A stretch of DNA of 42,781 nucleotides, taken from the NCBI GenBank assembly GCA_013821455.1, contig JACDGS010000036.1, positions 1-42,781 on the forward strand, read 5' to 3'. The DNA comes from Chthoniobacterales bacterium. Its GTDB lineage: Bacteria; Verrucomicrobiota; Verrucomicrobiia; Chthoniobacterales; UBA10450. Shown here piece by piece: positions 48 through 20,314 of this stretch. The translations under genes and the position numbers were made by a program. The stretch's first letter is position 1; each line of letters starts with the position of its first letter. The notes under the pieces were generated by a model that was given only the letters and a program-made list of their open reading frames with translations, did not search any database and was not told the DNA's origin.

Positions 48-1502
48 TTATTTTACCCGGACGTTTTTGCGCAGAAACGTCGGCACATCGAGGTCCTGGC
101 CTTCCACGATGGTTGGCTCGCTCTTTTCGAAACGCCCGCGGTTGACCGATTCGAACTGCATCACTTCCTGACGCGCCTGCGCCTTCTCTTTCCGCGGACC
201 CGCGTTTTTCCCCTGCTCCATCTCGTTAGGCATGGCAGCGGGTTTTGGAAGAGCGACTTTTTTCTCCCTTGGCGGCGGCGGTGGTGGCGCGACGGCCGCG
301 ATCGGTTCGGGGTCGATCAGTGGTGCGGACGTGATCTCGGCTTCAATCCGCGCAGGGGCAGACGGTGCCTCCGCTTCTGCGCGTAACTCTCGTTCCGCTT
401 CGGCGATCGGCGCAGTCTCCTCCGGTGCGGACGAAATCGGCGCCGGATTTTGCAGCACGCGAGTTGGGAAAGGCGTGACCTCCGGCAAGCGCGTTCGCTC
501 CGGCACGAATGGCTGCGCCTCCTCCGGCGAACCAACCGAACTGATCAGCGTCACGCTCATCCGGTTCCCCATTTTCCCATCCACGCTCGTGCCGAAAAGA
601 ATCTGCGTCTGATCCTCCACGTGCCGGTTGAGCTCCTGCATCACCATCTCCACTTCGGTCAGCGTCATGCCGGGGCCGCCGGAAATTTGCACAAGAAGAT
701 GGCGCGCATCGGTCAGCATTTTGCCACGATCCATCAGCGGATTTTTCAACGCGAGCGCGAGCGCTTCGTGCGCGCGGTTGTCGCTGTCGGATTCGCCGTA
801 GCCGAAGAGGCAACGGCTGTTGCGGCTGCGCAAGGCCGCGAGCAATTCGTCGAAACCGATCCGGATCAAGCCCGGTCGCCTAACGACCTGGACAATTGCG
901 CGCACACTTTGGCTGATCGTTAGGTCGGCCGCGGCAAAGGCCTGATGCACGCCGGCCTTCGGCAAAACCATGTCGCCCATCCGGTCGTTTTCGAAACAGA
1001 CGACCGCGTCCGCGAGCTGCTGCAACTGCCGCAGCCCTTCGCTCGCTTGCGCGCCGCGGCGTTTGCCTTCGAAGGCGAAAGGCAAAGTGGCAAAGGCCAC
1101 GACGAGTGCGCCGCTTTCGCGCGCCATTTGCACGATGCACGGCGCGGCGCCCGAACCCGTCCCGCCGCCCAGGCCGGCACAAACAAAAACCATCCGCGCG
1201 CCTTGCAGCGTCTCGCGAATTTCGTCAGCCGATTCGTCAGCCGCGTTGAAACCCAGCTCCGGATCGCCGCCGGCGCCGAGCCCACGCGTCACCGTGCGCC
1301 CGAGCTGTACCTTTTGCGTCGCGACCGAGCTGGCAAGCGATTGCACATCGGTGTTAGCCGCGATGAGATCCACGCGCTCCAGCCCATCGAGAATGATGCG
1401 ATCGAGCGCGTTACAACCCGCGCCTCCGACGCCGATGATTTTAATCGCGAGATCGTCTTCCTGTTTTTCGGGCAGGCTATAATTGCGGCTGAGTTGAATC
1501 AT
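48..1502 (-). CDS. ftsZ: Cell division protein FtsZ with divergent T7 loop
   Basis: Tubulin-like GTPase that forms the division ring at mid-cell. The 484-residue product has the N-terminal nucleotide fold (GVGGAGCNA, residues 24-32) and the G-box GGGTGSG at 112-118, where the usual sixth residue Thr is Ser. FEGKRR (144-149) keeps the Glu and Arg that contact GTP. A Pro/Ala/Glu-rich linker of about 110 residues follows the core, and the tail DLDVPTFLRK matches the C-terminal peptide that binds FtsA. Oddity: the T7 loop reads GLIRIGFDEL (211-220) where the family has GLMNVDFADV, so the Asn and both Asp positions of the NxDxxD pattern are Arg, Gly and Glu. It is the last gene of the dcw cluster. 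No Shine-Dalgarno is seen; two tandem GCCTAACGA words occupy that position. Confidence 0.95.
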   Translation of the reverse strand: MIQLSRNYSLPEKQEDDLAIKIIGVGGAGCNALDRIILDGLERVDLIAANTDVQSLASSVATQKVQLGRTVTRGLGAGGDPELGFNAADESADEIRETLQGARMVFVCAGLGGGTGSGAAPCIVQMARESGALVVAFATLPFAFEGKRRGAQASEGLRQLQQLADAVVCFENDRMGDMVLPKAGVHQAFAAADLTISQSVRAIVQVVRRPGLIRIGFDELLAALRSRNSRCLFGYGESDSDNRAHEALALALKNPLMDRGKMLTDARHLLVQISGGPGMTLTEVEMVMQELNRHVEDQTQILFGTSVDGKMGNRMSVTLISSVGSPEEAQPFVPERTRLPEVTPFPTRVLQNPAPISSAPEETAPIAEAERELRAEAEAPSAPARIEAEITSAPLIDPEPIAAVAPPPPPPREKKVALPKPAAMPNEMEQGKNAGPRKEKAQARQEVMQFESVNRGRFEKSEPTIVEGQDLDVPTFLRKNVRVK

Positions 1503-1694: not shown

Positions 1695-2906
1695 TCATCG
1701 AATGCGTTGCATGAGTTTCCCAAAAATCCCGCGGAGGCCGGTCCGCTGCGGGCGTTCGCCCTGCACGGCCTGAGCATACTTGATCAGCCCGATGGCCGCG
1801 GCGAACTGCGGGTTTTCAAAGGCACTCGTTAGGCCGGACATCGTGCGCGCATGCGTCACGCGCGCGGGGATGCCGAAAACATCCTCCGCCAGGTTATCGA
1901 TGCCGTTGATCTGGCTGCAGCCGCCGGTGAGAAAAATCCCTTCGCCGAGATAATCGAGATACGGCTCGTCTTCGAGGCGGCGCTTGAGCAGCTCGAACGT
2001 CTCGCGCAGGCGCATGTGAATGATCGTGTTCAACGTCTCGCGCTCGACTTCTTTTCCGGCGAAACCGGAGTCGTCTTTCAGCAGCACGGTTTCGCCCGGG
2101 AGACAGTTGCCGAGAACAGTGCTGCCTTCCTCAATCTTGAGCTTTTCCGCGCGCGTCATCGGGATGCGCAAGCCCATCGAGATGTCGTTCGTGATATGAT
2201 CGCCGCCGACCGCGAGGACGCCGCTTTGTTTCACCGCGCCATCGACATAGAGGACGTAGTCAGTCGTGCCGCCGCCGATATCGATCACGAGCGCGCCCAG
2301 ACTTTTTTGATGCGGCGTGAGCACGACCTGCGCGGAAGCGAACGCGGTGAAGACCACATCCTCGACATCGAGCGGCAGCTCCTTCACGCAGCGGATCGTG
2401 TTTTGAATCCGCGTCCGCACGCCGTGGATGATGTGAAAATCCGCTTCCAATTTCTGCCCGAGCATGCCTAACGGATTGAGCACACCCGTTTGTCCCGCGA
2501 CGTGATAATGCTGGATGATCGTGTGCAGAAAAGCGTTCTGCGCCGGGATGCTGACTTCGCGCGCGTTGATTTTTACATCCTCGATATCCTCCTCATCGAT
2601 CTCGTCGCGATCGTCCGGCAGCGCGACGCAGCCGCGGTTGTTGAAGCTCTGAATGTGCGATCCGGTGACGCCGACATAAACGCTACGAATCATGATGTCG
2701 CTTTTCTCCTCGGCGTCGACGACCGCTTCCTGCACGCACTTCATCGCCGTCTCGAAATCGACGATCTCGCCTTTGCGCACGCCACGCGAAGGCGCCTGCC
2801 CGACCCCGAGGATTTTGATCGTGCCGTCCGGGCGACTCTCGCCCACCACGACACAAATCTTCGAGGTGCCAATTTCCAAACCGACCATCAAGTTGCTGCT
2901 AGCCAT
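1695..2906 (-). CDS. ftsA: Cell division protein FtsA
   Basis: Actin-like ATPase that tethers FtsZ filaments to the membrane. The 403-residue product begins MASSNLMVGLEIGTSK, the phosphate-1 motif, and has DIGGGTTDY (phosphate 2), TGGCSQINGI (adenosine region) and a C-terminal amphipathic tail ending GIFGKLMQRIR that would insert in the membrane. The start at 2906 is chosen because upstream codons encode an Arg-rich stretch unlike FtsA and because the ATG overlaps the end of ftsQ by eight bases. A family-1 repeat separates it from ftsZ, so the pair may be uncoupled translationally although probably co-transcribed. Confidence 0.95.
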   Translation of the reverse strand: MASSNLMVGLEIGTSKICVVVGESRPDGTIKILGVGQAPSRGVRKGEIVDFETAMKCVQEAVVDAEEKSDIMIRSVYVGVTGSHIQSFNNRGCVALPDDRDEIDEEDIEDVKINAREVSIPAQNAFLHTIIQHYHVAGQTGVLNPLGMLGQKLEADFHIIHGVRTRIQNTIRCVKELPLDVEDVVFTAFASAQVVLTPHQKSLGALVIDIGGGTTDYVLYVDGAVKQSGVLAVGGDHITNDISMGLRIPMTRAEKLKIEEGSTVLGNCLPGETVLLKDDSGFAGKEVERETLNTIIHMRLRETFELLKRRLEDEPYLDYLGEGIFLTGGCSQINGIDNLAEDVFGIPARVTHARTMSGLTSAFENPQFAAAIGLIKYAQAVQGERPQRTGLRGIFGKLMQRIR

Positions 2907-4095
2907 TACCGTCGTTTCCCTGGTTAAAACGCTGAAGTGGAATCGCCTTCCGCGCTGGTGAAGGCGTCGGGCGAGTATGAAATTGTTCGACGCCCGGACT
3001 AACGAGTGTCGCTCGTGGGATCGGCTTTTGCGCCGCTGTCGCGCGTCGCACTTCCGGTTTCGCCGCGATGGTTGGAGGAGCTTTGTGCGCGATCTTCGTC
3101 GCCGCTGGAACTTTCGCGCTCGGTTCGGTTTTCGTCTCCGGCGCGGCCTCGGGTTCCTCGCCATCATCCTGCAGCTCGGAAATAATTTCCCTCGCCGGCT
3201 TGGTGAAAGTCACCGGAATGTTATGCGCCACGAGAAGATTCACGGTGCCGATCTGACGATGAGCGTCGTCCGCGTAAACGAGAAGCTGCTCGAGCCGCTG
3301 CATTTGTTTCTCGAGGTCGTCGAAACCAAACAAGACCTCGGTGTGATTCTTGTCCGTCACGTCGAGGCAATAACCTTTCCCAACATCGACATCGCGAATC
3401 TGGAAACGGGTCTGCATGAAACTTGTCGTCGTTAGGCGGAGCAGGGCCAGCGCCGTTTTCGCCTCGAACGAATCGACCGGTTTGCCGGGCACGAGCGCGG
3501 CCGTGGGGACACTGGTGATGAGCGGCAGAGCCAGATAATCGGTCGCGAATTCCTTCTCTTTCATCACCACGCCGCGCGCATCGACGAGAAACGCCACGTC
3601 CGATTTGAAAGGATCCATGATCTTTTTTTCAGTCGTGATCCAAGCGACCGGTTTGCGCTCCGTGACGTGGATATCGATCTCGTTAGGCATGCGCCGTTCC
3701 ACCTGCACTTCCTCGATCTGCGCGAGGCGCTGCAGGCGATCGTGCACGCGCGCGAGGTTGATCGAAAAAATATTAATTCCCTCCGCGAGTCCGGCCTCTT
3801 TCAGCACCTGAGCGCGGGGCAACGTTCCATCCGTCTGGACGCTGATAATGCTCAGGCGGTAATCGTTGTTTTCGAAAAAGAAGCGGTCCAAACCCCCGCG
3901 CACGCCGTAGTAGAGCCCCGCGCAACTCGCCACCGCGAGAGCAACCTTCGCGAGCAAAACGAGCACGCGGCGATTGCGGTGATGCGTTGCTCGGCGCGAG
4001 CGCACCCGCACGTCGAGGAGCTGCTGCTGCTTCCGTTGCCGCGAAGTCGAAAGCCGCTGATTGCCCGGACGCGCTGGAGTTTTCTTCGCCTTCAT
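2899..4095 (-). CDS. ftsQ: Cell division protein FtsQ/DivIB
   Basis: Bitopic membrane protein of the FtsQ-FtsL-FtsB type complex. The 398-residue product has a very basic cytoplasmic N-terminus (about residues 1-42), one membrane segment (about 44-65), a POTRA-like region around ISVQTDGTLPRAQVLKEAGLAEGINIF and a FtsQ beta domain ending near residue 290. An unusually long Ala/Pro/Lys-rich tail of roughly 100 residues follows; it looks disordered. The start at 4095 gives an ATGA overlap with ddl and is preferred over an in-frame start 48 bases upstream. Confidence 0.88.
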   Translation of the reverse strand: MKAKKTPARPGNQRLSTSRQRKQQQLLDVRVRSRRATHHRNRRVLVLLAKVALAVASCAGLYYGVRGGLDRFFFENNDYRLSIISVQTDGTLPRAQVLKEAGLAEGINIFSINLARVHDRLQRLAQIEEVQVERRMPNEIDIHVTERKPVAWITTEKKIMDPFKSDVAFLVDARGVVMKEKEFATDYLALPLITSVPTAALVPGKPVDSFEAKTALALLRLTTTSFMQTRFQIRDVDVGKGYCLDVTDKNHTEVLFGFDDLEKQMQRLEQLLVYADDAHRQIGTVNLLVAHNIPVTFTKPAREIISELQDDGEEPEAAPETKTEPSAKVPAATKIAHKAPPTIAAKPEVRRATAAQKPIPRATLVSPGVEQFHTRPTPSPARKAIPLQRFNQGNDGNG

Positions 4096-5193: not shown

Positions 5194-7494
5194 TCACGCC
5201 TCCTCCCCCACGATTTGCACTTCGGTTTCCAATTCGATCCCGCGTTTGTCCCGCGCGGCAGTTTTGATTTTCTCGATCAACTCCAGCATCTCGACGGCTG
5301 TCGCCGCGCCATCATTCACGATAAAATTTCCGTGCACCTTCGAGACCCGCGCGTCGCCCACCCGCATGTCTTTTAATCCCAGTTCATCAACCAATCTGCC
5401 CGCGGGACACGCTGCCGGGTTTTTAAAAATACATCCCGCACTTTTTGCGCTCGGCTGCGAGGTGCGCCGTTTCTCCTGCGACTCTTCCAGGCGCCTAACG
5501 ATCTCCTCCGTGCTCGATTTCTCCCCACGAAAAACCGCCGCGACGGCGAAGTTCTGCGCGAGCGACGGCACATGCCGGTAATGCACTTCCAGTTCGTTAG
5601 GCGATTTTTCCTGCGCCTGACCTTCGCCGTCGAGATAACGGACGCGCACGACTTGTTCGAAGGTCTGCCGCCCCATCGCGCCGGCGTTCATGCGCAGAGC
5701 GCCGCCGACTTCGCCCGGAATTCCCTCCATCCATTCGAAGCCGCCGATGCCCGCGGCTTTTCCGGCGTAAGCCACCTGCTTCAGCTTCGCGCCCGCCCCC
5801 GCGGTGACTTCCACGCCTAACGACTCGATTTTTTCAAATTCGCCGCCGCTCGGGTGGACCACCACCCCGCGAATACCGCCGTCGCGCACGAGCAAATTCG
5901 AACCGCGGCCGATGACGAAGAGCGGCAAATTTTCGCAGCGACAAAAGCGAATCAAATCGGCGAAGGCCGCTTCCGTGCGCGGCTCGACCCAGAACTGCGC
6001 GGGACCGCCGACCCGCAGAGTGGTGTGTTGCGCGAGCGGCTCGCCTAACCGCACCTCGCCTTCCGCGCCAACAATTTCCCGCAACTTCTCCGCCACGACT
6101 AATTCCGCGGCGAGCCGCGCGAGCTGTTCGTGAATATTTCCAGCGCCGAGGCTGAGAACGAGATCGCCTTCCGCGAGCATCTGCCCGACATCGGAATGCA
6201 ACCTTTCCAGGCGCGGTTGATAAGCGACATGGCGATGGCCGTGGCGAATAATTTCTTCGGCGATCGTTAGGCCGCTGATGCCGTCGAGCGGCGCTTCGCT
6301 CGCGGGATAAACGTCGGTCACAACCACGCGATCGGCATCGTCGAAGGCGCAGCCAAATTCCTTGCGCAACGCTTTCGTGCGCGAATAACGATGCGGCTGG
6401 AACATGGTGAGAACGCGCTTGCGCCCGGCCGATTTCGCGGTCGCGAGCGTCGCGCGAATCTCCGTCGGGTGATGCGCGTAATCGTCCACCAGCAGATAAC
6501 GCTCGCTCTGATATTTGATCTCAAAGCGCCGCCGCGCGTGCCGGAAATTGCCTAACGACTTCGCGATTTTCGCAAAGGACACGCCCAGCTCGGTGGCCAG
6601 CGCGATGACGCCCAGCGCGTTGCTGACGTTGTGCTTGCCCGGAACGTTCAAGGTCGCGTCGCCTAGCTTTTCACCGTCGCGCTGCACGCAAAAAGTGGCG
6701 GCGAAATCGTGCAGCTCCAAGTCCGTGGCGCGGTAGCTCGCACGTTCGCTGAAGCCATAGGAAACCGATTTCGCACGCGAGCCGCAGAGGCGCGCGGCGT
6801 GTGCATCATCAGCGCAATAAAAAATGTCGCCGCTGGTTTGCGCCATCAGCCTAACGAACACTTTTTCGATAGCTTCCAAGTCGGCGTAATAATCGAGATG
6901 CTCTTCTTCGATGTTGAGAATGAGCGCGTGCTCGGGATGAAAGAGTTGCAGAGTGCCATCGCTCTCGTCCCCTTCCGCGACGAAATATTCGCCTAACGAG
7001 TCCCAATGCGCGTTGCTTCCGAGGATCGGGATTTCCGCGCCGACATAATGCGATGGATGCAAGCCGCCACTACGCAAAACATGCGCGGCCATCGCCGCGG
7101 TCGTGGTCTTGCCGTGCATCCCGGCGATGACGATGCCGCGCTTGCCGCGCATGATCGCCGCGAGCGCTTCCGCGCGGCGGATCGCCGGAATGCACCGGCC
7201 GCGCGCGCTAACGAGAATTGGATTTTCGTGCTTGATCGCCGACGAATAAATGACCAGCTCCGCGTCCGTAGCGTCCTCGGCACGATGGGGCGAAAAAGCG
7301 CGCAGTCCGAGTTGCGCGAGGCGTTCTGTTTCCAGCGTGCTTACCTTGTCCGAGCCGCGCACGTCGTGCCCGAGTTCGAGAAGCAGCGCCGCGATCCCGC
7401 TCATCCCGCTGCCGGCCACGCCGATCAAATGGATGGCGTGCCGTTCCCGGGTGAGGAAACGCTGGAGGTCGAGATCAGGCGGCGACGGCGTCAT
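5194..7494 (-). CDS. murC-murB: Fused MurC-MurB (UDP-MurNAc L-alanine ligase / UDP-GlcNAc-enolpyruvate reductase)
   Basis: A single 766-residue polypeptide carries two consecutive cytoplasmic peptidoglycan enzymes. Residues 1 to about 465 are MurC: IGVAGSGMSGIA (24-35), the ATP loop GMHGKTTT (125-132) and DDYAHHPTEI (337-346). Residues about 470-766 are MurB: RVGGPAQFWVEP (494-505), FAD-binding GRGSNLLVRDGG (529-540), GIPGEVGGALRMNAG (591-605), SAGCIFKNP with Cys688 at the proton-donor position often held by Ser, and the C-terminal catalytic Glu in LETEVQIVG. MurB makes the substrate for MurC, so the fusion joins steps 2 and 3. No stop or frameshift is seen between the halves. The start at 7494 overlaps the end of murG by 20 bases. 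Confidence 0.93.
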   Translation of the reverse strand: MTPSPPDLDLQRFLTRERHAIHLIGVAGSGMSGIAALLLELGHDVRGSDKVSTLETERLAQLGLRAFSPHRAEDATDAELVIYSSAIKHENPILVSARGRCIPAIRRAEALAAIMRGKRGIVIAGMHGKTTTAAMAAHVLRSGGLHPSHYVGAEIPILGSNAHWDSLGEYFVAEGDESDGTLQLFHPEHALILNIEEEHLDYYADLEAIEKVFVRLMAQTSGDIFYCADDAHAARLCGSRAKSVSYGFSERASYRATDLELHDFAATFCVQRDGEKLGDATLNVPGKHNVSNALGVIALATELGVSFAKIAKSLGNFRHARRRFEIKYQSERYLLVDDYAHHPTEIRATLATAKSAGRKRVLTMFQPHRYSRTKALRKEFGCAFDDADRVVVTDVYPASEAPLDGISGLTIAEEIIRHGHRHVAYQPRLERLHSDVGQMLAEGDLVLSLGAGNIHEQLARLAAELVVAEKLREIVGAEGEVRLGEPLAQHTTLRVGGPAQFWVEPRTEAAFADLIRFCRCENLPLFVIGRGSNLLVRDGGIRGVVVHPSGGEFEKIESLGVEVTAGAGAKLKQVAYAGKAAGIGGFEWMEGIPGEVGGALRMNAGAMGRQTFEQVVRVRYLDGEGQAQEKSPNELEVHYRHVPSLAQNFAVAAVFRGEKSSTEEIVRRLEESQEKRRTSQPSAKSAGCIFKNPAACPAGRLVDELGLKDMRVGDARVSKVHGNFIVNDGAATAVEMLELIEKIKTAARDKRGIELETEVQIVGEEA

Positions 7495-8578
7495 GCGGTT
7501 GGATGTATCTTTCCATCGTATCCACAACCAAAGCGGCTGCGTTTTTCGGCGCGAGGGTGAAGGCCGCGGCGGACATCGCGCGCAACGTTTCCGGCTCACT
7601 TAAAAGCGTTTGGATTTTTTTGCCGAGGAGATCGTCGATCAACTCGGATTCCTTCACGACGACGGCGGCTTTCGACGCGGCGAAAAGCTCGGCGTTGCGC
7701 GTCTGATGGTCGTCGGCCGCGTAGGGATAAGGAATGAGAAGCGAGGGCAACTGGAACGCGGCCAGCTCGGCCAAACTCGCCGCGCCCGAGCGCGCAATCG
7801 CGAAGTCCGCCGCGCTATAAACTTCCTCCATCCGATGATGAAAGGCGGCGACGTGCGCGGGGATGTTTTCGCGCCGGTAATTATCTTCGAGCAGAAGCGC
7901 CTCGCGGCTGCCGGTGAGGTGGATCACTTGCAACGGCGCGTTATGCAGCGCGGGCAGCGCTCGGATCATCGCCTGATTTATTCCACCTGCACCCTGACTC
8001 CCGCCCATCACGAGCAACGTCGAAACGCCCGGTCGCAGATTCAGCCTAACGAGTGCCTCCGTGCGATCGATCCGTTGCAAGCTCGAGCGAATCGGCGTGC
8101 CGGTCCATTCGGTCGAGACCTTGGGGAAAAACGCGGCGCATTCTTTGAATCCGAGCAAAACCGCGCGCACGAAACGCGCGGTGTGGCGATTCGCCCTGCC
8201 GGGGATGGCGTTGGATTCATGGAGAAACGTCGTGCTCCCGCGCATCCGTCCCGCGAGGACCGGCGCAGTGGAAGTAAATCCGCCCATGCCGAGAACAACC
8301 TGCGGCTTGAACTTCCGATATATCGTGCGGCAGAGCGCAAGGCTGTCATTGAATCGCCTAACGAATCGTAAAATCGCCGGCGAGAAGGGCGAAGGCAACG
8401 CGATGGTCGGCAGTTTTTCGAAACGAAAATCGGGATGTTTGGTGACGGCGAGGCTGTCGATTTCTTTTTCGGAAATGAAGACGAGCACTTCGTGGCCGCG
8501 CGCGCGCAACACCTCCGCCACGGCCAATCCCGGGAAGAGATGCCCGCCAGTACCGCCGCATGCGACGACGACGTTCAT
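7475..8578 (-). CDS. murG: UDP-GlcNAc:undecaprenyl-pyrophosphoryl-MurNAc-pentapeptide transferase MurG
   Basis: Glycosyltransferase (GT28) that converts lipid I to lipid II on the inner face of the membrane. The 367-residue product starts VVVACGGTGGHLFPGLAVAE, the diphosphate-binding glycine loop. GMGGFTSTAPVLA, the second loop in VMGGSQGAGGIN, and the UDP-GlcNAc site SGAASLAELAAFQLPSLLIPYPYAADDHQ are all present. The start at 8578 places the glycine loop at the N-terminus as in the family. A 127-bp gap separates it from ftsW. Confidence 0.95.
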   Translation of the reverse strand: MNVVVACGGTGGHLFPGLAVAEVLRARGHEVLVFISEKEIDSLAVTKHPDFRFEKLPTIALPSPFSPAILRFVRRFNDSLALCRTIYRKFKPQVVLGMGGFTSTAPVLAGRMRGSTTFLHESNAIPGRANRHTARFVRAVLLGFKECAAFFPKVSTEWTGTPIRSSLQRIDRTEALVRLNLRPGVSTLLVMGGSQGAGGINQAMIRALPALHNAPLQVIHLTGSREALLLEDNYRRENIPAHVAAFHHRMEEVYSAADFAIARSGAASLAELAAFQLPSLLIPYPYAADDHQTRNAELFAASKAAVVVKESELIDDLLGKKIQTLLSEPETLRAMSAAAFTLAPKNAAALVVDTMERYIQPHDAVAA

Positions 8579-11772: not shown

Positions 11773-11884
11773 GTCATCCCGAGCGAAGCGAGGGAGCCCG
11801 CAAACGCTTTTGGGCGTTGTGACAAATCGGAGATCGAGCGTGCGCGAGGGATCCTTCACCGCGCTTCGCCGGTTCAGCATCACA
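11773..11884. repeat. Palindromic repeat family 1, copy c (mraY-murD junction)
   Basis: About 112 bp with the left end GTCATCCCGAGCGAAGCGAG intact. The right end, CGCTTCGCCGGTTCAGCATCAC, is degenerate relative to the other copies. It fills the gap between mraY and murD. Confidence 0.75.
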
Positions 11885-16122: not shown

Positions 16123-17871
16123 TCAGCGGCGGGGTTCGGTTAAGGCGACTTGCTTTCCAACTTCCTCATGCGGCTCAAGGTCGAGATAGCGCGCGGCCTT
16201 CTCGGCCAGATGCGCAAAAATCGGACCGGCGACTTTGCCGCCGTAGTTTTCTTCCGCGGTCGCAGTGTGGGCGTCGTCGAGGACGACGAGGGCGACAAAG
16301 GCCGGATTTTCCGAAGGCAGGAATCCGCAGAAGGAGACGATTTCCACACCTTTGAGGTAGCCGGGACCGTTCGGATTGTTTTTGCTCGCGGTGCCAGTTT
16401 TGCCGGAAACAGTGAAGCCGGGCACAGCGGCTTCCGCGGCGGTACCGCGCGAGCTGACGACTCCGCGGAGGGCGAGTGTCACCTGCTCCGCCGCGTCGCG
16501 TGAGATCACTTGCCTAACGACGGCCGGTTTGGGTTCGCTGACGGTGTTGCCTTTGGCGTCGACGATCGATTCGATGATGTGCGGCGCGACCATTTTACCG
16601 CCGTTCGCGATCGTGGCCATGGCGACGATCATCTGCAACGGCGTGACCGCGACTTCCTGCCCCATCGGGATGCGGGTAATGGAAATTTTGCTCCAACCGC
16701 GCGGCGATCCGATGCGGCCGGCGATCTCGCCCGGCAACTCGATGCCGGTCTGCCGCCCGAAGCCAAAGTTGCAGATGTATTGGTAAAATTTCATGTCGCC
16801 GAGCATGAGGGCGATCTTGGCGGCGCCGATGTTGCTCGAGTGCACGAGGACATCGCGCACCGGAAGCTCGCCGTAATATTTGTGCTCGTGCAGGTATTTG
16901 CCGCCGTAGAGCCACGGGCCGTTTTCGCAAAAAATCGGCGTGTCGAGCTGCACTTTATGTTCGTTCAAGGCCGAGCCGACGGTGACGATTTTAAAAGTCG
17001 AACCCGGCTCCATTTGCGCGGCGATCGCGGTGTTCATTTTCTGCTCGTCCTTCGCAGTGCTGCGCTGGTTGAGATCAAAGTTAGGCCGGTTCGCCATCGC
17101 CAAAATCTCGCCGGTCTGCGGACGCATGAGAATGATGGTGGCCTTCTTCGGCGTGTATTTACGCACCGCGGCATTGAGCTCGTCCTCGACGATGTTTTGC
17201 AGATTCAAATCGATCGTGAGGTGGACGTTGTTGCCATCGCGCGGCGGATGCTCGGCGCCGCGATAAAGGACGAGTTCTTTGCCCGTGCGATCGTGCTCGA
17301 TCTCGCGGTAGCCGTCTTCGCCGTGCAGATAATCCTCCATCGATTTCTCCACGCCCTGGATGCCCTTGTGATCATAGTCGGTGAAGCCGATGACATGGCA
17401 GAGCATCGAGCCGTTGGGATATCGCCTAACGAAGTCACGCTCAAACTGGATGCCGCGCAGTTTGGCCGCGGAAAGTTTTTTGCCTAACGAGATCGCTTCC
17501 TCTTCCGGGAAGGCCAGTTTCAAACGGTAATAAAGACGGCCTTCGTCGATCTTCGCCTCGATCTCGCGCGCCGAAATCCGGAGCGCTTCGGCGAGAAGGG
17601 GAACAAGTTTCGCGCGATCGTTAACGAGCGGCGCGTCGAGGATAACGTTCTCGACCGGAACATTCTGAGAGAGAGGTTCGTTGTTGGTGTCGAGGATTGT
17701 TCCCCGTTCCGCATAAATCGGGACTTGCGAGGTGTCCTTCTTCGTCGCGAGCGCTGTGTAGTAATCGTGGCGCACCATTTGCAGGTAAACGAGGCGAAAC
17801 GAGAAAACGCTGAAGAGGACTGCGAACCCGCAGCAGACCAGCGTGCAACGAACGCGGCCGTTCCACTTCAT
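16123..17871 (-). CDS. ftsI: Division transpeptidase FtsI / class B penicillin-binding protein
   Basis: Septal peptidoglycan transpeptidase acting in the periplasm. The 582-residue product has one N-terminal membrane anchor (about 9-31), a dimerisation domain with AERGTILDTNNEPLSQN (the RGxIxDRxG-like box, 54-70), and a transpeptidase domain with STFK (Ser291 nucleophile), SSN (345-347) and KTGT (491-494). No PASTA domain is seen, which favours FtsI over SpoVD-like relatives. ATGA overlap with ftsL upstream. Confidence 0.94.
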   Translation of the reverse strand: MKWNGRVRCTLVCCGFAVLFSVFSFRLVYLQMVRHDYYTALATKKDTSQVPIYAERGTILDTNNEPLSQNVPVENVILDAPLVNDRAKLVPLLAEALRISAREIEAKIDEGRLYYRLKLAFPEEEAISLGKKLSAAKLRGIQFERDFVRRYPNGSMLCHVIGFTDYDHKGIQGVEKSMEDYLHGEDGYREIEHDRTGKELVLYRGAEHPPRDGNNVHLTIDLNLQNIVEDELNAAVRKYTPKKATIILMRPQTGEILAMANRPNFDLNQRSTAKDEQKMNTAIAAQMEPGSTFKIVTVGSALNEHKVQLDTPIFCENGPWLYGGKYLHEHKYYGELPVRDVLVHSSNIGAAKIALMLGDMKFYQYICNFGFGRQTGIELPGEIAGRIGSPRGWSKISITRIPMGQEVAVTPLQMIVAMATIANGGKMVAPHIIESIVDAKGNTVSEPKPAVVRQVISRDAAEQVTLALRGVVSSRGTAAEAAVPGFTVSGKTGTASKNNPNGPGYLKGVEIVSFCGFLPSENPAFVALVVLDDAHTATAEENYGGKVAGPIFAHLAEKAARYLDLEPHEEVGKQVALTEPRR

Positions 17872-18233
17872 CGTCCGCTCCCGTCAGTCGAGGTCGAGTG
17901 CAGTTCGTCATTGCTAATCGGCCGTACCGGCGGACCCAGCCTAACGATGCTCTGCTCCGTGATCGGGACCATCTTGAGATAGCCTTCCTGGAGACGGCGC
18001 TGCAGCGCGGTGCGGGAAGTGAGCGCGGCGAATTGGACGCGTGCGTCTTCGATCTGCACGTGAACTTCGTTCAGCTCGCGCTCGATCTTTTTGCGATCGG
18101 TCCCGAGCGTGTGCAACTGCACCGAGAGATAGACGTAACTCAAGCCGGTGGCGGCGACGAAAATAAAGATGACGATCCAACGCGCGAGCGCAGGGGCGTT
18201 GATCGAGTTGAATTTTTGGTGGCGACGATTCAT
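17868..18233 (-). CDS. ftsL: FtsL-like small bitopic division protein
   Basis: A 121-residue protein with a basic N-terminus (MNRRHQKFNS), one membrane segment (about 16-38, ARWIVIFIFVAATGLSYVYL) and a periplasmic stretch with coiled-coil character (TDRKKIERELNEVHVQIEDARVQFAAL). Sequence identity to FtsL is weak, as usual for this family; the call rests on size, topology and the conserved place between rsmH and ftsI. Start at 18233 shares one base with the rsmH stop (TGATG), and its own stop overlaps ftsI as ATGA. Confidence 0.8.
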   Translation of the reverse strand: MNRRHQKFNSINAPALARWIVIFIFVAATGLSYVYLSVQLHTLGTDRKKIERELNEVHVQIEDARVQFAALTSRTALQRRLQEGYLKMVPITEQSIVRLGPPVRPISNDELHSTSTDGSGR

Positions 18234-19156
18234 CAGATCCTTTCGGCGACGCGAAGTTTGGCGCTGCGCGAACGCGGATTTGCGCGCTGCTCGATCGCGT
18301 CCGGCTCGACGGGTTTGGTTGTGATCAGGTCGAGTTCGTGTTCGGGATTTGGCCTCGGCTCTGGCCATTCCGGGCGATCGAGGAACGCGCGACTGCGATC
18401 GCGGAAGAAATTTTTGACGATCCGATCCTCGAGCGAGTGGAAGGTGATGACCGCGATGCGGCTCCCCGGCTCGAGTCGCCTAACGATCGCGCGCAGACCC
18501 TCCTCGAGCGCGCCGAGCTCGTTGTTCACTTCCATGCGCAACGCCTGAAAAATCTGCGTCGCGGGATGGCGACGACCGTGACGCCCGACGATTTTTTCGA
18601 TCGTCTTCGCGAGCGTGAGGGTTTCGCGAAACGGATTTTCTTTGCGCGCTTTTACGATCTGGGTCGCGATCCGACGCGCGGCCGGCTCTTCGCCCAGCTC
18701 GCGGAAAATGCGGGTGAGCTCCTCTTCGGCATAACCGTTGACGATTTCCGCCGCGGTCAGTTCATTCCGCGGATCCATCCGCATATCGAGTGGACCGTTG
18801 CGCATGAGACTGAAGCCGCGGTCGGCGTTTTCCAATTGGCGCGAGGAAACTCCGAGATCGAGAATCGCGCCGCCGATCTGCGCGATCCCGAGGCGATCGA
18901 GCACCACGCCCGCTTCGCGAAAATTCGCGCGCTGCAAAGTGACGCGGCTGCCGAAGTTCGTTAGGCGAACGCCCGCGAATTCCAGCGCGTCGGGATCCTG
19001 GTCGAGGGCGAGGACATCCGCGCCTGCCTGTAGAATCGCTTCGGTATGCCCGCCTCCGCCGCAAGTGCCATCGAGAATGAGCGAGCCCGCGCGCGGGGCG
19101 AGCAGCTCTAGAACTTCGGTCACGAGAACCGGCCGGTGATAGCTGAAATCCTCCAT
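18233..19156 (-). CDS. rsmH: 16S rRNA m4C1402 methyltransferase RsmH (MraW)
   Basis: SAM-dependent methyltransferase acting on 16S rRNA C1402. The 307-residue product begins MEDFSYHRPVLVTEVLELL, followed by DGTCGGGGHTEAIL (SAM-binding loop), LDLGVSSRQLENADRGFSL, DMRMDPRNELTAAEIVN, and FHSLEDRIVKNFFRD near the C-terminus, all family hallmarks. The start at 19156 is supported by AAGGAGGAG nine bases upstream, one of the few clear Shine-Dalgarno sequences here. A longer in-frame start at 19231 would add 25 residues not usual in the family. Confidence 0.95.
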   Translation of the reverse strand: MEDFSYHRPVLVTEVLELLAPRAGSLILDGTCGGGGHTEAILQAGADVLALDQDPDALEFAGVRLTNFGSRVTLQRANFREAGVVLDRLGIAQIGGAILDLGVSSRQLENADRGFSLMRNGPLDMRMDPRNELTAAEIVNGYAEEELTRIFRELGEEPAARRIATQIVKARKENPFRETLTLAKTIEKIVGRHGRRHPATQIFQALRMEVNNELGALEEGLRAIVRRLEPGSRIAVITFHSLEDRIVKNFFRDRSRAFLDRPEWPEPRPNPEHELDLITTKPVEPDAIEQRANPRSRSAKLRVAERI

Positions 19157-19244: not shown

Positions 19245-19700
19245 CTAAACTCCCATGCGCCGCGCGACGGGTTGATATTCGGGTTGCTCGACCTCAGCCG
19301 TGCGATCCCAGCGCGCCAAATTCCAAATCTCGAAACGTCCAGAACCACCAACGAGCGCGATCCCATCGCCGAGCGTGAATTTCTCGCAAAAATCTTCCGG
19401 TAACACGAGGCGTCCATGACCATCGGGCGCACCGCGACGCGCGGCGGCGTGAAAATGACGAAGGAATTTGGCGGCCTCGATCGGCTCGGTCTCTTCGAGC
19501 TTTTCGCCCTTGGCCGTGACGCGACCGAATTCCTCAACGGTCAGGACAAGCAGGCACTCGCCGCCTTTCGGAACGAGATAGACTTCCTTGACTTCGCCCT
19601 TTCCACGCCAATCAGAAGGAATGGTGAATCGATTTTTCTCGTCGAGCTGCCGGCGAAAAACACCAGGGAAAGAGATTTTACTTTTGGCGGCCGATTCCAT
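19245..19700 (-). CDS. mraZ: Transcriptional regulator MraZ
   Basis: AbrB/SpoVT-fold DNA-binding protein that represses the dcw promoter in bacteria where it has been studied. The 151-residue product has the two duplicated motifs LDEKNRFTIP and DGHGRLVLP, as expected. The start at 19700 gives the normal family length; an earlier ATG at 19742 would lie at the promoter itself. It is the first gene of the dcw cluster and lies directly behind four matching operator boxes, pointing to autoregulation. Confidence 0.93.
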   Translation of the reverse strand: MESAAKSKISFPGVFRRQLDEKNRFTIPSDWRGKGEVKEVYLVPKGGECLLVLTVEEFGRVTAKGEKLEETEPIEAAKFLRHFHAAARRGAPDGHGRLVLPEDFCEKFTLGDGIALVGGSGRFEIWNLARWDRTAEVEQPEYQPVARRMGV

Positions 19701-19716
19701 GACTGTGGGAGAGCAA

Positions 19717-19751
19717 GTCCATTGCCATCCACTACCACCCATTGTAAACCA
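19717..19751 (-). promoter_or_regulatory. MraZ operator: four TGGNN boxes at 10-bp spacing
   Basis: On the minus strand TGG occurs at 19751, 19741, 19731 and 19721 (TGGTT, TGGGT, TGGAT, TGGAC), each exactly 10 bases apart. MraZ is known to bind direct TGGGN repeats separated by five bases. The boxes overlap the -10 and start region of the promoter, so bound MraZ would block transcription of the cluster. Confidence 0.75.
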
Positions 19752-19771
19752 CTGGCCTTCCGCCGGGTCAA
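19741..19771 (-). promoter_or_regulatory. Predicted sigma-70-type promoter of the dcw cluster
   Basis: Reading the minus strand, TTGACC at 19771-19766 is a good -35, and TACAAT at 19746-19741 (19-base spacer) or TTTACA at 19748-19743 (17-base spacer) is a candidate -10. Transcription would begin near 19734, about 35 bases before the mraZ ATG. The first two MraZ boxes overlap the -10. Confidence 0.6.
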
Positions 19772-19828
19772 TACAATAAATGGTGGTTTGCGCGGTTTTC
19801 TGCTGGGAGGTAACCTTGCCAGCGCAGA

Positions 19829-20314
19829 ATGTTTTTGAAGGCTTCTCATCTCCAATCGGCAATTGGGCTCATTATGATGGTTGGCGCGGCGCTCGCTCAG
19901 ACTCCGGATGAAGCAGTGCGCGTGACCGTGACGGTGAACCCTGACGGATCGAAAACGATTTACCACACCGACGCCGCGAAGCACGAGACGGTGGCGACTT
20001 CCACCACGGCCAGCGGCACACCGAGCGGCAAAATCATTTATCATGTCGACGCGGAAGGCCGCTACGAAAGTGGACGTGTCTTCGCCGCGAATGGCGCGTT
20101 TCGTTTTAAGACGCTGTATCGCTACGACGCCGCGGGCCGGCTCAGCGAAGAGTCGCAATTGGATAAGAACGACGTTGTCATGCACAAGATCGTCTATGCT
20201 TTCGACGCCGAAGGACATCCGACCGGCTACGCGATCTACGATGGCGCGGGCGCGCTTGTGGGGCAGACCACGCCCAAGACTTCGGCATCGCCGAACACGA
20301 AGCGACACAAGTAA
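19829..20314 (+). CDS. Secreted YD-repeat-like protein, function unknown
   Basis: A 161-residue protein with a probable signal peptide (MFLKASHLQSAIGLIMMVGAALA, cleavage before QTPDEA). The mature part consists of repeats in the pattern KxIYHxDAxG / LYRYDAAGRLSEES / YAFDAEGHPTGYAIYDGAG, reminiscent of RHS/YD repeats but much shorter than toxins of that class. It is transcribed divergently from mraZ and precedes the ExbB-like gene on the same strand. GGGAGG lies 18 bases before the ATG, too far for a normal ribosome site. No enzymatic motif is seen; a structural or binding role outside the cytoplasm is inferred. Confidence 0.7.
   Translation: MFLKASHLQSAIGLIMMVGAALAQTPDEAVRVTVTVNPDGSKTIYHTDAAKHETVATSTTASGTPSGKIIYHVDAEGRYESGRVFAANGAFRFKTLYRYDAAGRLSEESQLDKNDVVMHKIVYAFDAEGHPTGYAIYDGAGALVGQTTPKTSASPNTKRHK

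Follow-up and report, generated by a model that had tools for sequence, protein, structure and literature searches.

FtsZ of a soil Chthoniobacterales bacterium (phylum Verrucomicrobiota), encoded by the first gene of the 42,781-nucleotide stretch of DNA analysed here (the window), lacks the first of the two T7-loop aspartates and retains an acid only at the place of the second. In standard teaching, these two aspartates form the conserved pair of catalytic residues in FtsZ. As judged by sequence comparison, the change is old: it characterises a whole clade and would have arisen long ago in that clade's ancestor, and a second clade of the same phylum shows the opposite loss. Our analysis makes it reasonably probable that these proteins have an active site with a single carboxylate and that GTP is still hydrolysed there, probably at a lower rate than in E. 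coli.

The window ftsZ encodes the regular division protein of this bacterium. Its scores for both FtsZ domains (Table 1) exceed the curated Pfam cut-offs (Tubulin, 33 bits; FtsZ_C, 27 bits), and it has the other traits of the family as well, namely a GGGTG(S/T)G G-box, the FtsZ fold, the C-terminal peptide and a dcw site beside ftsA. A phmmer search of the PDB gave 53 matches, nearly all of them FtsZ, with M. jannaschii and S. aureus FtsZ among the best. The gene order is ftsQ-ftsA-ftsZ, with ftsZ at the end of the dcw cluster. Upstream of ftsZ on the same strand, Pfam identifies ftsA, ftsQ, ddl, a murC-murB fusion, murG, ftsW and murD, and mraY, murF, murE, ftsI and mraW are found further upstream. 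The cluster is intact and holds a single ftsZ copy. In the genome (4.3 Mb, 97% complete), neither a tubulin gene nor a second ftsZ, whose presence the sequence-only reading had proposed to check, was found; no second copy was seen in any of 57 genomes of the class, of which 56 had one ftsZ and the remaining one (74% complete) had none.

Several other features of the cluster deserve mention. The murC-murB fusion encodes one protein of 801 amino acids (window 5194-7599), and such a fusion is also known from V. spinosum (PMC12283558). Two reading frames (17868-18368 and 19541-20308) that occupy the positions of ftsL and mraZ in the cluster have no Pfam match. Between ftsA and ftsZ there is a strong palindromic repeat (1556-1680; predicted fold -79 kcal/mol, z -8.2), of which about 40 copies were scored elsewhere in the genome at 77-93% identity (345 candidates). 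The GTCATCCCGAGC end of the repeat is found again at window positions 11773, 25244 and 39274. The repeat looks like a REP/MITE-type element within the ftsQAZ part of the cluster.

Table 1 Features of the window ftsZ gene and its neighbour (residue numbers are those of the window FtsZ unless a species is given)
Feature	Window position	Strand	Equivalent or role	Basis or remark
ftsZ, 484 aa	48..1502	(-)		Pfam Tubulin 151 bits, FtsZ_C 71 bits
C-terminal conserved peptide DLDVPTFLRKNVRVK	51..95	(-)	FtsA-binding tail type	
T7 (synergy) loop and start of H8, GLIRIGFDEL, residues 211-220	843..872	(-)		
Glu219	846..848	(-)	E. coli D212, S. aureus D213, alpha-tubulin E254	retained carboxylate
Asp218	849..851	(-)	E. 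coli A211	new acid, adjacent to the retained carboxylate; alignment
Gly216	855..857	(-)	E. coli D209, S. aureus D210	alignment
Arg214	861..863	(-)	E. coli N207, S. aureus N208 (K+ contact)	alignment
Arg149	1056..1058	(-)	E. coli R142, S. aureus R143 (arginine-finger-like)	conserved
G-box GGGTGSG, residues 112-118	1149..1169	(-)		intact, Ser for Thr
Gln54	1341..1343	(-)	E. coli Q47, S. aureus Q48 (locks K+)	conserved here
Asp52	1347..1349	(-)	E. coli D45, S. aureus D46 (Mg shell)	conserved
ftsA, next upstream of ftsZ	1695..3167	(-)		Pfam FtsA 121 bits, SHS2_FTSA

The register of the T7 loop is secure. GLIRIGFDEL aligns to GLINVDFADV of M. jannaschii FtsZ with no gap in or near the loop (phmmer) and to GLMNVDFADV of E. 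coli in identical register (MAFFT), giving the changes N207R, D209G, A211D and D212E (E. coli numbering, used for alignment positions below). Where canonical FtsZ has NxDxxD (N207, D209, D212), the window protein reads RxGxxE, which bears out the departures described by the sequence-only reading; its limits for the loop, 839-872, are slightly too wide, the exact coding positions being 843-872 on the minus strand. In an AlphaFold2 model (mean pLDDT 91.6, with 80-90 for the block around the T7 loop), the loop sits between H7 (185-208) and H8 (217-224), so that Gly216 would close the loop and Asp218 and Glu219 would fall in the opening turn of H8. Compared with solved FtsZ structures, the model reaches a Z of about 42 over 305 residues, and the top 50 PDB entries by fold match are all FtsZ (Z 39-43). 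Another register with an Asp at the catalytic position was looked for and is ruled out by the ungapped alignment, by MAFFT and by the predicted structure.

Since D212E is a conservative change, a carboxylate still stands at the second acid place. The proposal that the catalytic residues had been lost is therefore right for D209 (S. aureus D210) but not for the second acid, and Glu219, at the D213 place of S. aureus, is the only one of the two upper-subunit acids that the window protein keeps. The lower-subunit parts of the site are all present, comprising Asp52, Gln54, Arg149 and the G-box, the last with the Ser for Thr that had been noted from the sequence; this Ser form occurs in 54 of the 55 members of the clade described below. 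In families f14 and f17, the Gln54 place is occupied by Arg.

The alignment around the loop that had been proposed as a check was made with 172 FtsZs of the phylum and that of E. coli, and trees were built with the T7-loop columns left out; the alignment is less sure for the most diverged FtsZs outside the class than for the clades named here. The window's order and families f14 and f17 form one clade of 55 FtsZs (SH-aLRT 97), recovered with support 100/100 on a smaller, careful tree (54 rows, of which the clade makes up 24). Position 209 is never acidic in this clade (Gly 49, Thr 3, Ser 2, Ala 1) and position 212 always is (Asp 39, Glu 16), while Arg, Asn, Gln, Lys, His and others occur at 207. 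A basic residue is found at 47 or 207 in 47/55 members, compared with 7/28 in the opposite clade and 0/16 in the families with both acids. Gly at 209 goes with Asp at 211 in 16 further genomes of the window's family, and all four Gly codons are used for Gly209 across the clade, so a sequencing error is not the cause; the use of four codons is a sign of selection on the residue. What could be taken for an oddity of one gene is in fact, on this comparison, a trait shared by 55 FtsZs. D209 occurs in the families with both acids, in 45 of the 54 FtsZs sampled from other classes, and in the E. coli, M. jannaschii and S. aureus proteins, which points to a loss of this residue in the clade rather than a gain in other FtsZs.

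The mirror image is seen in a second clade, made up of families f13, f16, f20 and f21 (28 FtsZs, support 100; 100/100 on the careful tree). N207 and D209 are kept in 28/28 of its members and D212 is lost in 28/28, being replaced by Thr (18), Ala (5), Ser (3), Gly (1) or Gln (1); an f16 loop, for example, reads LINLDFATL. Families f69, f70, f72, f74 and f82 keep N207, D209 and D212 in all 16 of their FtsZs, as in LINLDFADL of an f72 member. Across the 170 readable loops of the phylum, 46 have both acids, 71 have D212 only, 50 have D209 only and 3 have neither, so that single-acid FtsZs account for 121/170. Parsimony requires a minimum of 10 changes at 209 and 12 at 212. The near-constant retention of at least one acid is, at the level of these sequences, a striking pattern with few independent events behind it: mutual exclusion of the D209 and D212 losses, assessed with independent pairs on the phylum tree, did not reach significance with only 6 supported pairs, and neither did a dependence of D209 loss on an Asp at 211 or on a basic side chain at 47 or 207. 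Outside the class, D209 is kept and D212 lost in 19 of 53 FtsZs (L048, L041, L056, L122 and others). The FtsZs of three family f15 genomes (L166, L168 and L169 in G177, G080 and G068; 2.2-2.5 Mb) have lost both T7 acids and have a degenerate G-box (GGAMGSA), and each is the only FtsZ found in its genome.

How could such a site work? By the established structural alignment of the family, we take the D212 place of FtsZ to be that of Glu254 in alpha-tubulin. Alpha-tubulin resembles the window FtsZ in having Glu as the retained acid at this place and differs in that its T7 loop keeps the Asn and the first Asp, both of which are missing here; in beta-tubulin, Lys at 254 makes the GTPase-dead type of interface. 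The window protein has Glu219 and so does not have a GTPase-dead interface of the tubulin type, which lacks an acid at this place. Glu254 is the catalytic residue of alpha-tubulin (PMC13394414), and with Glu219 at its place the catalytic acid has probably not been lost from the window FtsZ.

The T7-loop aspartates have been described as conserved across species, and in the S. aureus FtsZ filament D210 and D213 of the upper subunit hold the water that attacks GTP, with D210 swinging to position it (PMC8936486). In the same filament, N208 contacts a K+ of the loop that Q48 of the lower subunit locks, and R143 acts in the manner of an arginine finger; a D210N structure has the loop without K+, D210N and D213N both stop assembly and N208L does not assemble (PMC8936486). 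In E. coli, D212G lowers the GTPase almost tenfold and gives static rings in which treadmilling stops (PMC7320174), D212A leaves 7% of the GTPase activity (PMC8142252), and D209A forms aggregate-like structures in yeast (PMC3684127). Canonical FtsZs such as those of E. coli, S. aureus and M. jannaschii share with the window protein the fold, the G-box, the nucleotide contacts, R142/D45/Q47, FtsZ_C, the tail and the dcw site, and differ from it in the T7 loop, where it has Arg and Gly for N207 and D209, Glu for D212 and an extra Asp at 211.

The mechanism that we favour is one in which D209 was replaced by Gly in the ancestor of the clade, with the carboxylate at the D212 place (here Glu219) kept. 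Glu219 of the upper subunit would then bind and polarise the water molecule beside the gamma-phosphate, in the way of Glu254 in alpha-tubulin, assisted by Arg149, Asp52 and Gln54 of the lower subunit and perhaps by Asp218, and GTP hydrolysis would persist at a rate probably below that of E. coli. Slow hydrolysis is what the E. coli D212G, D212A and D209A mutants lead one to expect. Against this mechanism stand the failure of S. aureus D210N and D213N to assemble and the aggregates of E. coli D209A; with D210 swinging into place to set the water in S. aureus, loss of this aspartate would be expected to do the most harm. A basic side chain at either of the two places that hold K+ in S. aureus FtsZ, N208 (Arg214 in the window FtsZ) or Q48 (Arg in the sister families), may substitute for the K+ that is missing from the S. 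aureus D210N structure. This replacement of the T7-loop K+ by a built-in charge is an attractive but weakly supported idea, given the few events behind it. We found no GTPase measurement for any FtsZ of the D209-less clade in the literature, and no earlier description of the Verrucomicrobia T7-loop change in the literature searched.

The sequence-only reading had also raised the possibility that catalysis has shifted to the neighbouring Asp. If Asp218 took over the job of the lost D209, the two carboxylates would be at 211 and 212 instead of 209 and 212, and the distribution of acids at 211 speaks for this: Asp is found there in 48/55 FtsZs of the D209-less clade as opposed to 0/44 in the two comparison groups of the class, 49 of the 52 acids at 211 across the phylum accompany a lost D209, and lineage L178, with D209H, has Asp at 211. 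However, seven clade members, including both Verrucomicrobium-like FtsZs, have Ala, Gly or Asn at this position, other lineages outside the clade have lost D209 without gaining the Asp, and in the model residue 218 belongs to the opening turn of H8 and comes two residues after the D209 place. Since the seven FtsZs without an acid at 211 include the closest sampled relative of V. spinosum, Asp218 is not a general solution; such a shift is possible but not needed, and as a full account of the site we consider it rather unlikely.

A crippled GTPase, with very slow filament turnover and a Z-ring that is static or dismantled by other factors, in line with the unusually stable polymers suggested by the sequence-only reading, seems to us improbable. 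In its favour, the static rings of E. coli D212G demonstrate that a ring can assemble without much hydrolysis (PMC7320174), and S. aureus N208L and D210N fail to assemble (PMC8936486). On the other hand, every member of the clade has an acid at 212, and R142, D45 and the G-box are retained as well, which would be unexpected if hydrolysis were no longer needed, and where the site has been relaxed in the same class, in the three f15 members, both acids and the G-box have been lost together. The chance that the loop is an artefact, whether of a wrong register, of misassembly or of a divergent extra copy accompanying a normal FtsZ, is negligible in view of the ungapped alignment, the presence of the loop in 16 further genomes and the whole clade, the single gene and the modelled structure, which is in register. 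A single-carboxylate site built around Glu219, probably slower than that of E. coli, is the reading that we retain.

Comparison with other divergent FtsZs helps to place the window protein. The FtsZ of Nitrosopumilus maritimus also lacks the NVDFAD loop, but it has no GTP-binding motif and does not polymerise (PMC3684127), while the window FtsZ keeps the whole nucleotide site. Another case is V. spinosum, whose FtsZ was called canonical by Yee et al. 2007, who noted eight diverged conserved places and Ser in the G-box; the text of that paper does not name the T7 loop (PMC1845146). It has GGGTGSG, as in the window, and a linker much longer than the window's, and we place it in the same clade through family f17. 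In an 8.6-Mb genome of this family (G241), FtsZ (689 aa; loop GIVRMGIADL) belongs to the D209-less clade, and the four published V. spinosum ftsZ primers match this genome with 1, 3, 3 and 5 mismatches, compared with 5 to 8 for another genome of the family. The primer match to this relative makes it very likely that V. spinosum FtsZ is of the D209-less kind. Symmetric binary fission is the mode of division of V. spinosum, a species in which targeted mutagenesis is available and in which ftsZ, like almost all of the dcw cluster, is essential (PMC12283558). Taken with the loop of G241, this supports the view that cells can depend for division on an FtsZ without D209.

The chief interest of these results is the pair of opposite single-acid clades. 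Whole clades do without one or the other catalytic aspartate, with a single FtsZ gene and with a cluster that is essential in V. spinosum, so that one T7 acid is apparently enough in nature. A broader reading, which we offer tentatively, is that Verrucomicrobiota contain two opposite natural kinds of one-carboxylate FtsZ, that neither aspartate is individually needed for essential FtsZ-driven division, and that the D212-only kind may be alpha-tubulin-like, with a fixed basic side chain for the structural K+. These proteins are natural variants for asking which acid does what and how slow a hydrolysis a Z-ring tolerates, and they bear on how catalysis in FtsZ and tubulin is related. Inhibitors directed at the T7 loop may not work in these bacteria.
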